This document shows, piece by piece, positions 5,885 through 29,988 of a stretch of DNA of 64,000 bases (within the stretch, counting starts at the first letter, position 1; each line of letters starts with the position of its first letter). Source of the stretch: Dyella sp. 2HG41-7 (GTDB taxonomy: Bacteria > Pseudomonadota > Gammaproteobacteria > Xanthomonadales > Rhodanobacteraceae). The stretch covers positions 558,001 through 622,000 of the forward strand of contig NZ_JAJEJV010000004.1 of assembly GCF_021390675.1 (NCBI RefSeq). Reading direction: 5' to 3'. The notes below the pieces were generated by a model. The model did not search any database. It saw only the letters and a list, made by a program, of their open reading frames with translations, and was not told where the DNA came from. The position numbers were made by a program, and so were the translations under genes.

Positions 5885-7258
5885 ATGAGCCAACCCTCTC
5901 TGCACGTGATCGTCCTCGCCGCCGGCGAAGGCAAGCGCATGAAGTCCAAGAAAGCGAAGGTGCTGATGCCGCTCGCCGGCCGGTCCCTGCTCGCGCACGT
6001 TCTCGCGACGGCACGTGCGTTGGGCCCCGAAGCGATTCACGTCGTTTACGGTTTTCATGGCGATCAGGTGCTGGCGGCGTTCAAGGATCAACCGGATCTG
6101 CGCTGGACCTTGCAGGCCGAACAACTGGGCACGGGTCATGCCGTCGGACAGGCTTTGAAAGACGTCCCCGATAACGCCAAGGTGCTCGTGCTTTACGGCG
6201 ACGTACCGCTCACGCGCGTAGAAACGCTGCATCGCCTAGTGTCGACGGAAAGCAATCTATCCATGCTCGCCACGCGCGTAGCCATGCCTTACGGCTACGG
6301 TCGCGTTCAACGCGACGGCAACGGGTACGTGCGCGCCGTCGTCGAGGAAAAAGATGCGGATGAAACGCAGCGCGCCATCAATTTGATCAACACCGGCATC
6401 GTGGCCGGTGACGCTGCTGCGCTCAAACAATGGATCGGCAAACTCGACCGTAACAACGCGCAAGGCGAGTATTACCTCACGGACATCTTCAAGATGGCCG
6501 CGTCGGAAGGCAAATCGGCCGAATGCATCGAGTGCGAAGACGCAATGGAAGCCGCCGGCGCCAATACGCCGTGGCAATTGACTGAACTCGAAGATGCCCT
6601 TCGTCAACGTGCGGTGCAGGCGCTGTCGCTCAACGGCGTGCGCTTCGCCGATCCGCGCCGCGTCGATGTGCGTGGCGAGGTCGCCGTTGCGAGCGATGTG
6701 GAAATCGATATCGACGTCATTCTCGAGGGCAACGTGCAACTCGGCGACGATGTGCGCATCGGGCCTTACACGCGCGTAAAAGATGCGCAGCTGGCCGCCG
6801 GCACCGTGGTGCTGGCGCACTGCGATCTGGATGGCGTCGTAACGCACGGCCCGTGCATCATCGGACCGTTTGCACGCTTGCGCCCCGGCACGGTGTTGGC
6901 GTCCGGCGTGCACGTGGGCAACTTCGTGGAAACCAAGAAGACAACGATTGGCCAGAATAGCAAAGCCAATCATCTGAGCTATCTGGGCGACACGGTGATC
7001 GGTCGTGGCGTCAACGTCGGCGCCGGCACGATCACGTGCAACTACGACGGCATCAATAAGTTCGTCACCACCATCGAAGACAATTCGTTTATCGGCTCCA
7101 ACACCGCGCTGGTAGCGCCGGTGACCGTGGGCGCCGGTGCGACGATCGGTGCGGGCTCGGTGATCACCAAGGACGCACCGGCCGGCGAACTAACCGTGGC
7201 GCGTGCGAGGCAATCTACGCTCATGGGTTGGAAACGTCCGACCAAGCAGTCCAAATGA
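5885..7258 (+). CDS. glmU: bifunctional N-acetylglucosamine-1-phosphate uridyltransferase / glucosamine-1-phosphate acetyltransferase
   Basis: Makes UDP-GlcNAc for peptidoglycan and LPS: the C-terminal domain acetylates GlcN-1-P and the N-terminal domain adds UMP. The nucleotide-binding motif LAAGEGKRM is at residues 11-19 with the following Lys-Val-Leu. The C-terminal half shows left-handed beta-helix hexapeptides ([31 protein letters not shown]). I chose the ATG at 5885 (457 residues, as in E. coli) over an in-frame ATG at 5819 that would add 22 unconserved residues. glmU beside atp is a common gammaproteobacterial arrangement. Confidence 0.97.
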
Positions 7259-7264
7259 TCATGC

Positions 7265-7289
7265 CGCTCCGCTGCTAGAAAGCGGAGCG
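7265..7289. terminator. hairpin between convergent glmU and xanB2
   Basis: A 9-base stem CGCTCCGCT / AGCGGAGCG with a 7-base loop, 6 bases after the glmU stop and 11 bases before the xanB2 stop. No clear T-run on either side; probably a bidirectional terminator. Confidence 0.5.
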
Positions 7290-7299
7290 TCGCGCAGGA

Positions 7300-8292
7300 T
7301 CAGACGTAGCGCCATCCGTCTATTTCCACCAACAACTCACGGCGGCATACGTCGCCGTGCATCAACAGCGCGGGCACGCCGGGCAAGCGATGCTGCAGAA
7401 TGTCGCGTACGCGTGGCGCGTCGGTGGCGTGACGAACGTACACTTTGAGCGGCGAATGCGTGTCGAAACCGGCAGCCATCTCTGCTGTGCTCAGCAATGT
7501 TTCCAGATTCGTCAGCGTTTCGTTGAGTTGCGCTTCCAGATCGCCTTCGTGCGCCGACGCATGACCGACCACCGCCGCCGTGCCCGAGATAGCCAGCGCA
7601 TCGTGCGCAGGCATCAACATCGCGCGCGCGAAACCGGGTGAGGTGCGGCCGTACTGGCGCGGATAACGCCATGCGCTCACTTGGCGAGGATTTTCTATCG
7701 GCGTTCCAGCATCGATGCTGGCCAGCAAATAGATTTGCAGCGCGCGTTTCGTGTCGTGATGACCGATAGCGGTGGCGGCCGGAAAACCTTCCGCGAAAAA
7801 ATCCCCGAGACCGGCGGCGCGGCCGTCGCAAAACTGCTTGTAGCGTTCGGTATCGCCATCGCCTTCGTTAATGTCGCCGATGTAGTTCCAGATGCGCAAC
7901 ACGTTGCGTTCACGGCGCGTACCCATGAAGTCGCGCAAGGCCGCATAAGCCTCACGGGCGGCGCCTTCGATGCCGCCGTGCGCGTTTTCGTTCATTTCAA
8001 CCGCGGCGAATACCCAGCCGCCGCCGCTGGACCACCGCACGTCCCCGTGACGGCCGCTGGTGACCTCGCCCTCGACCTGCCACAACTCCAGCGGAGATGG
8101 CGCATCAAAACACTCCAGCGCTACGCATAACGAGCGTGGATCGTCGTCCTGAGGCGAGCCGGCGCCGAAACCGAAAACGGCCAGTGTGTCGGGCTCAGCC
8201 AACGCCTCTGCAAGCGGCGCCATGCGATACGTGACGCGCGGCGTACGCGGTAAAGCGGGTTGAGCCTGCAGGTTTTCGCTTGCCTGAACCAT
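7300..8292 (-). CDS. xanB2: XanB2-type chorismatase (3-hydroxybenzoate synthase)
   Basis: Member of the FkbO/Hyg5/XanB2 chorismatase family, which hydrolyses chorismate to hydroxybenzoates and pyruvate. In Xanthomonas, XanB2 supplies 3-HBA for xanthomonadin and 4-HBA for ubiquinone. Recognisable parts are RNVLRIWNYIGDINEG in the middle, the SAWRYPRQYGRTSPGFARA segment and the C-terminal CRRELLVEIDGWRYV. I chose the ATG at 8292 (330 residues, the family length); 40 in-frame residues upstream look non-coding and overlap the divergent ACP promoter. Its neighbours are ACP, dehydratase and ketosynthase genes, which supports an aryl-polyene starter-unit role. The balance between 3-HBA and 4-HBA cannot be read here. 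Confidence 0.88.
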   Translation of the reverse strand: MVQASENLQAQPALPRTPRVTYRMAPLAEALAEPDTLAVFGFGAGSPQDDDPRSLCVALECFDAPSPLELWQVEGEVTSGRHGDVRWSSGGGWVFAAVEMNENAHGGIEGAAREAYAALRDFMGTRRERNVLRIWNYIGDINEGDGDTERYKQFCDGRAAGLGDFFAEGFPAATAIGHHDTKRALQIYLLASIDAGTPIENPRQVSAWRYPRQYGRTSPGFARAMLMPAHDALAISGTAAVVGHASAHEGDLEAQLNETLTNLETLLSTAEMAAGFDTHSPLKVYVRHATDAPRVRDILQHRLPGVPALLMHGDVCRRELLVEIDGWRYV

Positions 8293-28349: not shown

Positions 28350-28820
28350 TTAAGGATCGACCGCGCCCGGAAACCCAAGCTGGCGCCACACCTCATAGAC
28401 CGCTACGGCCACGCTGTTGGACAGATTGAGGCTACGGCTGCCCGCGCGCATCGGCAGACGCAAACGCTGTTCCGCCGGCAGTGCGGACAGCACCGCATCG
28501 GGCAATCCCGCCGTTTCGCAGCCGAACAGCAGCGCGTCGCCGTCGGCAAAGCGTGCGTCCACGTGCCAGGTGCGTCCGCGTGTGGAAAACGCGAAAACGC
28601 GCGGGTGATCGAGCGAGGCCAGGCAGGTGTCGAGATCGTCATGCACGCTGACGCGCGCGTACTCGTGGTAATCCAGGCCTGCGCGCTTGAGGCGTGCGTC
28701 GTCGAGTTCGAAGCCCAAGGGGCGGATCAAGTGCAGCGCGGCGCCAGTGTTGGCGCACAAGCGGATCACGTTGCCGGTGTTGGGCGGGATTTCGGGGCGA
28801 AAGAGGATGACATGCAGCAT
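28350..28820 (-). CDS. trmL: tRNA (cytidine(34)-2'-O)-methyltransferase TrmL
   Basis: SPOUT methyltransferase of 156 residues that methylates the wobble base of tRNA-Leu isoacceptors. The N-terminal [27 protein letters not shown] is nearly diagnostic. The knotted C-terminus carries [11 protein letters not shown] and [26 protein letters not shown]. It heads the leftward housekeeping run; two small-peptide genes lie just upstream on the same strand. Confidence 0.95.
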
Positions 28821-28859: not shown

Positions 28860-29033
28860 TCAGCCAACCGTCCGAGCATTCGCGTTCGCCGAGGCGCTGA
28901 TGGCGGCGACGGCGTGGCCGGATGTCGTGGCGTTCGGTACAGGCTTGGCGGTGATCATGGCGATCAAGGTCAGACCGCAGAGCAATGCGCAAACGCCAAA
29001 CAGGCCGCGGAGGAAAAGCGTTTCGAATTTCAT
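28860..29033 (-). CDS. small single-pass membrane peptide, paralogue 1
   Basis: A 57-residue gene. The N-terminus MKFETLFLRGLFGVCALLCG is followed by hydrophobic LTLIAMITAKPV, forming one membrane helix or uncleaved signal anchor (about residues 8-28). The tail is Ala/Ser/Thr/Asn-rich, ending RTVG. An excellent ribosome site (AAGGAGATACCACC) precedes the ATG. It is paralogous to the next gene upstream (29069-29275): N-terminal 30 residues and leader GGAGATAC are shared while the tails differ. No known family recognised; it is probably transcribed from the sigma-54 promoter at 29328. Confidence 0.78.
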   Translation of the reverse strand: MKFETLFLRGLFGVCALLCGLTLIAMITAKPVPNATTSGHAVAAISASANANARTVG

Positions 29034-29068
29034 GGTGGTATCTCCTTATACGAGGAAAAACGTGGTGG

Positions 29069-29275
29069 TCAGATCACTGCGCGCACGCAGATCATGTCGC
29101 CGATGCCCGGAAGTACGCAGGTGGAAGGTGCAGAGGCAAGCAACGTCGCCATCGAACTATTGGCCGCGACTTGGCTCGGCGTGGGCTTGCTGGTGACCAT
29201 CGCTGCCAGGATCAGTCCGCAAACCAGCATGCATGCGACAAACAAACCGCGAAGTATCACTGTCTCGAATTTCAT
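29069..29275 (-). CDS. small single-pass membrane peptide, paralogue 2
   Basis: A 68-residue peptide, MKFETVILRGLFVACMLVCG then LILAAMVTSKPTPS, a membrane helix at about residues 8-28 matching its neighbour. The tail ends with two cysteines about ten residues apart (STCVLPGIGDMICVRAVI), which could form a disulfide outside the membrane. Ribosome site TTGGAGATACGGAC. It is the first gene downstream of the sigma-54 promoter, with about 40 bases of predicted leader. Function unknown; secreted signal, toxin-like or envelope-stress peptide are all open. Confidence 0.8.
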   Translation of the reverse strand: MKFETVILRGLFVACMLVCGLILAAMVTSKPTPSQVAANSSMATLLASAPSTCVLPGIGDMICVRAVI

Positions 29276-29327
29276 GTCCGTATCTCCAATTCAGAGGAAA
29301 GGGACCTAAGGCCCTCGCCCTTGAATG

Positions 29328-29344
29328 AGCAATCCCCGTGCCAA
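29328..29344 (-). promoter_or_regulatory. sigma-54 (RpoN) promoter for the small-peptide genes
   Basis: Minus-strand TTGGCACGGGGATTGCT matches the sigma-54 consensus YTGGCACG-N4-TTGCW at every specified base, with correct GG/GC (-24/-12) spacing. Transcription would start near 29316, leaving about 40 bases before the ATG at 29275. A palindrome array about 95-135 bases upstream fits an enhancer-binding site. Confidence 0.85.
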
Positions 29345-29409
29345 GGCGTGACCTGCCATCAATGTATTGATCTATATGGATTTATCTGAAATCGCCGCAC
29401 GCGACAGAT

Positions 29410-29450
29410 TGTCCGCGGACACCGGACACCACCAAGCGGACAGTGTCCGC
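29410..29450. promoter_or_regulatory. GGACA/TGTCC palindrome array (putative enhancer site)
   Basis: A perfect 12-base palindrome TGTCCGCGGACA (29410-29421) is followed by a CCGGACACC half-site and then GCGGACAGTGTCCGC (29436-29450), a 7-base inverted repeat around one central base. At least five GGACA/TGTCC half-sites fall within 41 bases. Location upstream of a sigma-54 promoter suggests binding of an NtrC-family activator dimer pair; it could also act on the divergent lipoprotein gene. Confidence 0.7.
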
Positions 29451-29565: not shown

Positions 29566-29988
29566 ATGCGCAAGACTCTGTTGCTGCTCGCGCCGGTTGT
29601 GCTGCTCGGCGGCTGTACCTGGGGCATCAATCCCGATCCGGGATCGAGCGCCGTCCGCACGGTGTGGAGCGGCGATGTGACGGGTTGTCGCGATCTGGGC
29701 AAGATCACGGTGTCCGTGATGGATCACGTCGGACCGTTCGATCGCAACGACATCAAGGTGCGCGACGAATTGCAGGTGCAGGCGCGCAACAGCGCCATGA
29801 GCATGCATGCGGATACCATGAAGCCGCTGGGCGATCCGGTCGACGGCAAGCAGGAATGGGAAGCGTATTCCTGCGGCAATCATCAGGTGGGGCCGTCAGC
29901 GCCGCCTCCGATGCAGAATCAAAATCCGGGCGCGCAGCCGCCGCCCGCGCAACAGAGCGGTGGTTTCCAGACCTATCCCAGCCACTAA
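29566..29988 (+). CDS. DUF4156-like lipoprotein
   Basis: A 140-residue lipoprotein: signal peptide MRKTLLLLAPVVLLGG with lipobox LGGC and the lipidated cysteine at position 17. The mature domain (VTGCRDLGKITVSV, ELQVQARNSAMSMHADTMKPLG, EAYSCG) resembles DUF4156 lipoproteins, whose role is unknown. The last 35 residues are Pro/Gln-rich and probably unstructured. Start ATG 29566 has GGAG six bases upstream. It diverges from the small-peptide genes across the palindrome array. Confidence 0.78.
   Translation: MRKTLLLLAPVVLLGGCTWGINPDPGSSAVRTVWSGDVTGCRDLGKITVSVMDHVGPFDRNDIKVRDELQVQARNSAMSMHADTMKPLGDPVDGKQEWEAYSCGNHQVGPSAPPPMQNQNPGAQPPPAQQSGGFQTYPSH

Follow-up and report, generated by a model that had tools for sequence, protein, structure and literature searches.

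One of the closest described parallels to the locus analyzed here is the QseF/GlrR system of enterobacteria (glmY, rpoE), for which three UAS with the consensus TGTN12ACA, IHF, and sigma-54 have been described (PMC6075780; this and the other papers named here are cited from excerpts). Both systems combine an NtrC-class regulator, a sigma-54-type promoter, an IHF-like site, TGT...ACA half-sites, and a link to the envelope, but the half-sites here are TGTCC/GGACA with a compact palindrome, and the targets are an exporter, tolC, and micropeptides, with no sRNA among them. The transport components resemble those of MacAB-TolC and DarBCD, with a HlyD-type adaptor, a LolD/DarD-like ATPase, MacB_PCD and FtsX permeases, and TolC within the regulon; in the present case, however, the ATPase is encoded apart from the permeases, eight permeases share one operon, and the proteins score below the equivalog cut-offs. 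BceAB-type modules encode an FtsX-type transporter together with a two-component system (PMC5985334), and the exporter operon described here also encodes a two-component pair, although its regulator is of the NtrC-class, sigma-54 type and the transporter has Gram-negative tripartite export parts.

For the peptides, the nearest precedent is AcrZ, a small AcrB-binding protein that tunes the pump (PMC7267776). Like AcrZ, they are small, with a single predicted membrane helix, and are linked to a tripartite exporter, in this case by a shared control element, but the pump belongs to a different superfamily and the peptides form a paralogous family. A review of MacB names YknW and AcrZ and, in the portion consulted, does not exclude that other small proteins act on MacB (PMC5985334), and a comparative study connects sigma-54 with the exterior of bacterial cells, with AtoC-like activators as the dominant group (PMC3162934). 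Judged from titles and the starts of abstracts, searches of the open-licence PMC literature listed no paper on the regulon, the site, or the peptides; the sole match to the letters of the site concerned a human gene, and the text examined of PMC10433810 and PMC9040847 contains nothing on this system.

The locus lies in a 64,000-nucleotide stretch of the Dyella sp. 2HG41-7 genome, the whole of which we call the window. Its features are as follows.

29438..29448, minus strand: UAS half-sites GGACA (29444-29448) and TGTCC (29438-29442), reading GGACAcTGTCC
29424..29428, minus strand: UAS half-site TGTCC
29410..29421, minus strand: UAS core palindrome TGTCCGCGGACA, 78 nt upstream of the -24 element
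29360..29371, minus strand: IHF-like site ATCAATACATTG, one mismatch against WATCAANNNNTTR, which we took as the IHF consensus for site scoring
29328..29343, minus strand: sigma-54-type -24/-12 element TGGCAC-GGGGA-TTGCT
29069..29275, minus strand: first micropeptide gene, 68 aa, with a predicted N-terminal membrane helix and a tail holding two conserved Cys
28860..29033, minus strand: second micropeptide gene, 57 aa, a paralogue without the Cys tail and with its own GGAG ribosome-binding site
28350..28820, minus strand: neighboring trmL/yibK-like tRNA methyltransferase gene, linked to the regulon by mere adjacency
29566..29988, plus strand: neighboring divergent gene, DUF4156 lipoprotein-like, related to the array by adjacency only

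The original prediction placed a sigma-54 consensus on the minus strand 53 bases before the first gene, and strand and distance hold, the element lying 53 nt from the ATG at 29275 with GG at -24 and GC at -12 in correct spacing. The span given for it, 29328-29344, was one base too long: TGGCACGGGGATTGC occupies 29329-29343, or 29328-29343 if the final T is counted (TGGCACGGGGATTGC(T)). Also as predicted, the two small genes are paralogous, their ORFs being 46% identical, and a GGACA/TGTCC array lies upstream of them, made up of the palindrome and three further half-sites that reach to 29448.

Taken alone, the promoter match proves nothing, since the exact -24/-12 pattern is at chance, with 15 matches in the 4.26-Mb genome and 15 in the reversed control; the sigma-54 consensus was accordingly dropped as evidence by itself. 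The sequence TGTCCNNGGACA, which is palindromic so that every place is scored on both strands, occurs at 7 places in the genome against 2 in the control. A composite pattern, TGTCCGCGGACA-N55-80-TGGCAC, marks 3 sites in the window's own genome and recurs across 138 of the 197 family genomes, every row giving 0 matches for the control; because the pattern needs only the -24 half, some odd-spaced matches may be non-promoters. In a sample of 250 genomes of the order, 51 carry the composite element, of which 43 are among the 52 family members sampled and 8 among the 198 remaining genomes. Of these 8, L139 and L140 have an adaptor of matching type behind the site, identified in both by reading, and the others may be chance matches. 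L139, L140, and L141 come from a different family within the order and likewise show TGGCAC, an IHF-like site, and an array of TGTCC half-sites, with the palindrome at 67 nt as against 79.

When 41 genomes were searched at the protein level, 21 yielded the peptide: all 16 of the genus (own genome included), 5 of 9 other family members, and none of the 16 genomes outside the family. At all 21 best peptide loci TGGCAC-N5-TTGC is present with a palindrome at -78 to -81, and the half-site array too recurs at fixed spacing before the peptides at all 21 loci first compared. We tallied leading peptide genes solely in loci fetched for peptide matches (n=47), because loci fetched by DNA pattern would bias the count; one of the 47 (L113) lies in a stretch widened to include a DNA-pattern match. 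In every one of these genes TGGCA-N7-TGC begins 36-69 nt ahead of the start codon and two or more half-sites occupy the enhancer position, and 28 of the 47 have the exact palindrome. Two more peptide genes that the text pattern missed (L112, L118) have a -24/-12 element at 61-62 nt with 3 or 4 half-sites upstream. Over all loci, the -24/-12 element was found in 73 of 74, half-sites in 73, and the palindrome in 52, compared with 0.16% in shuffled upstream DNA, and the lone exception is by its sequence a false text-pattern match.

The arrangement is equally regular among 97 unique composite sites, in which the search itself fixes TGGCA and TGC: position 6 of the element is C in 93, the palindrome-to-element spacing is 76-80 nt in 89, and 94 have at least one additional half-site in the 60 nt that lie upstream of the palindrome (10% in shuffles). 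An IHF-like site with at most one mismatch occurs in 57% of 60 peptide promoters (3.9% in base shuffles) and in 50% of 22 adaptor promoters (2.6% in base shuffles); it occurs in 0 of 7 tested permease promoters and is also absent from 43% of the peptide promoters. The -24/-12 element and the palindromes, whose conservation in relatives was part of the test set by the original prediction, are both kept there (both at 21/21 loci, the element with at least two half-sites at 47/47 peptide genes, the composite in 138/197 genomes).

These sites do not serve peptide genes alone. Of the 97, 60 precede peptide genes, 22 an operon for a HlyD/MacA-type adaptor and exporter, 8 a lone FtsX/MacB permease gene, 5 tolC (as pcm-tolC or tolC operons), and 2 other genes, the 97 being a sample of loci from 30 pattern-matched genomes plus further chosen ones, with one site first classed as other reassigned to permease after its protein was read. 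For the 70 sites in loci reached by DNA pattern, the corresponding counts are 33, 22, 8, 5, and 2. The window's own genome has five TGTCCGCGGACA places, four of which have a -24/-12 element 78-79 nt on, and those outside the window are listed here.

C4:316246: before a lone permease gene
C4:3494678: before the adaptor operon
C4:3720246: before a 28-aa peptide gene
L068:5812-5823 (gene span 6663-8009): fifth site, before pcm-tolC, with only a degenerate -24/-12 element

In another genome (G042, L157) the full composite element stands directly before tolC. A fourth peptide of the own genome, 28 aa long, is found elsewhere, on L073. Because the element also precedes an exporter operon, permease genes, tolC, and further peptide genes, the window unit is part of a regulon, and the idea of a unit dedicated to its peptides has to be given up. 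The companion idea, an NtrC-family regulator acting in trans on other targets as well, finds support in the sequence: four of the five own-genome sites are accompanied by the element, and that element also precedes an operon whose last genes include one for a regulator. Single composite sites were seen before three other kinds of gene: in one genus, a lipoprotein-like gene of about 600 aa that might be an additional target (L145, minus strand, site at 420); in a different family of the order, a 55-aa membrane-type peptide with no resemblance to those described here (L143:449, plus strand); and a protein (L087) resembling a secreted-looking one that follows a peptide gene in L117.

The exporter operon has all its genes on the minus strand, in the order adaptor, LolD/DarD-like ATPase, eight permeases, alpha/beta hydrolase, NtrC-class response regulator, and histidine kinase. 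In the own genome (C4; L072:1847-6699 and L083:3867-14461) the eight FtsX/MacB-type permease genes form four alternating pairs alongside one ATPase and one adaptor gene; 5 of the 8 permeases were scanned and the remaining three assigned from their sequence starts alone. Four permeases compared with ADOP gave alternately first- or second-half matches of 168-191 bits, so that each covers one half and none the full length of TIGR03434 (622.3 bits). The MacB model, a fused ATPase and permease (966 bits), does not describe these separate genes, for which the permeases score at most 52.9 and the ATPase 216.7 bits, and the adaptor reaches 53.6 bits against the MacA cut-off of 342. Among NCBIfam models, the ATPase scores best against the darobactin exporter ATPase and also matches one for a bacteriocin exporter, in both cases below cut-off; the scores against the DarBCD models were 259.6 bits for DarD (cut-off 375) and 73.8 bits for DarC (cut-off 450).

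The response regulator of this operon combines a receiver, an AAA+/Sigma54_activat domain with GAYTGA, and a Fis-type HTH, and is by these features a bEBP. It falls short of the NCBIfam equivalogs GlrR/QseF (292.4 bits, cut-off 763), PEP-CTERM PrsR TIGR02915 (345.9 bits, cut-off 502.6), and AtoC NF008469 (352.3 bits, cut-off 714). A Sigma54_activat search of the genome returned 9 matches, 6 strong and 3 of 21-31 bits, and none of the 9 lies within C4:558001-622000, in agreement with the initial view that the window holds no activator gene. The genome has a single copy of rpoN and thus contains both rpoN and an NtrC-class activator, as a sigma-54 promoter requires.

Queried with the regulator's receiver, 178 of 197 family genomes gave a match at 1e-25; a few of the 19 without one still carry the element (among them G106, G125, and G132), and several of these regulator-negative genomes are incomplete, but G106 is 99% complete. 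Linkage between regulator and site was assessed in 56 genomes, those among the matches listed for both. In 48 of the 56, site and regulator share a contig, and in every one of these a site lies 5,525-26,020 nt upstream of the regulator and on its strand, a linkage expected by chance in about 0.8% per whole genome and more often on short contigs; the other 8 have the two on separate contigs. Where the exact palindrome is missing (L159, L163, L165, L167), TGTCC arrays and a -24/-12 element still precede the adaptor gene, the promoter of three further loci (L160, L161, L164) being outside judgement, and four genomes in which no peptide was detected have arrays ahead of the exporter operon. Of 16 regulator loci, 15 contain the helix string SRQALYRRM, the gene end of the 16th (L147) lying outside the stretch. 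Because of the upstream same-strand site in 48 of 48 genomes, the kept arrays, and the constant SRQALYRRM helix, the regulator is the best activator candidate, and on these grounds the response regulator of the exporter operon is likely to be the trans activator of the array.

The residues flanking SRQALYRRM are of two types, RAAxxLGL...RYG and QAAxxLGL..., and the regulator C-termini split into L083/L151/L158/L166/L168 on one side and L159-L165, L167, L139, and L140 on the other. The QAAxxLGL type occurs mostly in genera without the exact palindrome.

In the loci, 80 distinct peptides of 27-76 aa were matched. Within a diverse set of 31, E4 and F12 are invariant and C15, C19, and M26 nearly so, and AlphaFold gives one helix over residues 2-28, with low confidence past about residue 33. 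A single membrane helix is predicted (best 19-residue hydropathy 2.56), in line with an AcrZ-like size and helix. Among ten orthologues of the genus, differences per codon position were 0.18, 0.05, and 0.34 for residues 1-28, 0.42, 0.23, and 0.49 for residues 29-50, and 0.28, 0.25, and 0.34 for residues 51-68. By this measure the predicted helix is under strong purifying selection, the middle (29-50) appears loosely constrained, and the two-Cys end displays little third-position excess. The start is constant between paralogues and the tail variable; the 68-aa class keeps two Cys in its tail, forms of 27-29 residues have almost no tail, and 13 distinct forms of 28 residues are the helix alone.

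Neither window peptide has a Pfam or NCBIfam model above cut-off. A large collection holds 525 related proteins, named hypothetical or uncharacterized where shown, with no Pfam domain in the 120 listed. At E 1e-6, 110 of the 197 family genomes gave a peptide match, a count from which short forms may escape, with 1-7 detected paralogous copies per peptide-bearing genome. In raw counts that ignore relatedness, 105 of the 197 genomes have both peptide and composite site, 5 the peptide only, 33 the site only, and 54 neither; with 33 of the 138 site-bearing genomes thus lacking a detected peptide, the exporter operon can persist without peptides. The idea that the peptides are translated leaders for one constant gene downstream fails as a general rule, because the following genes vary. 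Genes for 28-aa peptides lie 11 nt before serine-hydrolase-like genes in L106 (5718-6860, minus strand) and L120 (plus strand), the best model of the L106 hydrolase being AmpH at 143.6 bits against a cut-off of 266, and in L117 a peptide gene precedes the other, secreted-looking protein mentioned above.

The explanation that we favor, and regard as probable on the strength of these genomic patterns, is that the regulator switches on the exporter and the peptides together through the array, the peptides being inducible one-helix accessory subunits. Its two halves differ in standing: we are highly confident in the regulatory part, and hold the role of the peptides as exporter subunits to be plausible but tentative. 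In such a scheme, the histidine kinase would sense stress of an envelope or antimicrobial-peptide type, and the phosphorylated regulator would occupy the TGTCC half-sites. IHF would bend the DNA between array and promoter, and the regulator would act with RpoN polymerase to set off joint transcription of exporter and peptides. The regulator would also positively autoregulate its own operon and raise the extra permeases and TolC, while the peptides would enter the inner membrane and modulate the MacB/FtsX-type permeases. A bolder version, which we put forward as a conjecture with about one chance in three of being right, holds that sigma-54-inducible micropeptides, down to a bare 27-residue helix, are dedicated and interchangeable subunits of a multi-permease MacB/ADOP-like exporter, co-switched with TolC by one two-component system.

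Two other accounts keep the same regulon and assign the peptides a different role. They could act on the sensor or the bilayer, either as feedback on the histidine kinase or as envelope-stress micropeptides independent of the exporter. Small one-helix proteins often modulate kinases or membranes, and this precedent, together with co-regulation with an envelope system and the serine hydrolase genes (best model AmpH, below cut-off) that adjoin some 28-aa genes, makes the account worth stating; we nevertheless think it unlikely, as transporter genes are the commonest other targets. Somewhat less likely again is that the peptides are cargo of the exporter, bacteriocin- or signal-like, with the helix as leader and the tail as released product. 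The darobactin and bacteriocin exporter models matched by the ATPase would suit such a role, as would paralogues that share a start and vary in the tail, and the conserved two-Cys tail of many peptides, kept in the 68-aa class, would likewise fit an exported product. Yet both ATPase matches are below their cut-offs, ATPase and adaptor alike miss those for darobactin, the genes next to the peptides vary, the 27-29-residue forms are nearly tailless, and in the ten orthologues the helix is the conserved part, with residues 29-50 loosely constrained.

The regulatory half of the favored explanation has rivals of its own. Given six strong Sigma54_activat matches in the genome, another NtrC-class activator might bind the array, be it FleQ-, PilR-, or NtrC-like (labels that we assign to own-genome activators from reading their proteins) or one of two without a recognizable receiver, and the position of the exporter would then be incidental. 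We regard this as very improbable in view of the cis linkage in all 48 genomes with a site on the regulator's contig, against a chance of about 0.8% each for whole genomes and more on short contigs, and of the arrays that front the exporter operon in four genomes with no peptide detected; the NtrC-, PilR-, and FleQ-like activators are disfavored as binders by the same linkage to the exporter-operon regulator. That the -24/-12 match and the palindromes reflect chance or some other purpose, and that the peptide ORFs are not genes, can draw on the chance-level count of the exact -24/-12 pattern by itself. Set against the zero control matches of the composite, the -24/-12 element and half-sites at 47 of 47 leading peptide genes, and a codon-position pattern that is that of a protein gene, its probability is close to nil.

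With joint control of exporter and peptides by the operon's own regulator as the preferred reading, what was an orphan promoter now belongs to a regulon whose targets are clear, whose site is 12 bp long, and for which there is a candidate activator gene, in a soil bacterium of a genus that is not known to be pathogenic. It also brings in a widespread family of peptides that has no Pfam model and has so far been annotated as hypothetical proteins, and its members are concrete candidates for small proteins acting on MacB. The distribution of sites suggests how an autoregulated exporter switch gained short target genes in some genera, only exporter targets being seen elsewhere. If the proposed subunit role is true, the FtsX/MacB superfamily would have small-protein partners that are duplicated within genomes and present across much of a bacterial family.
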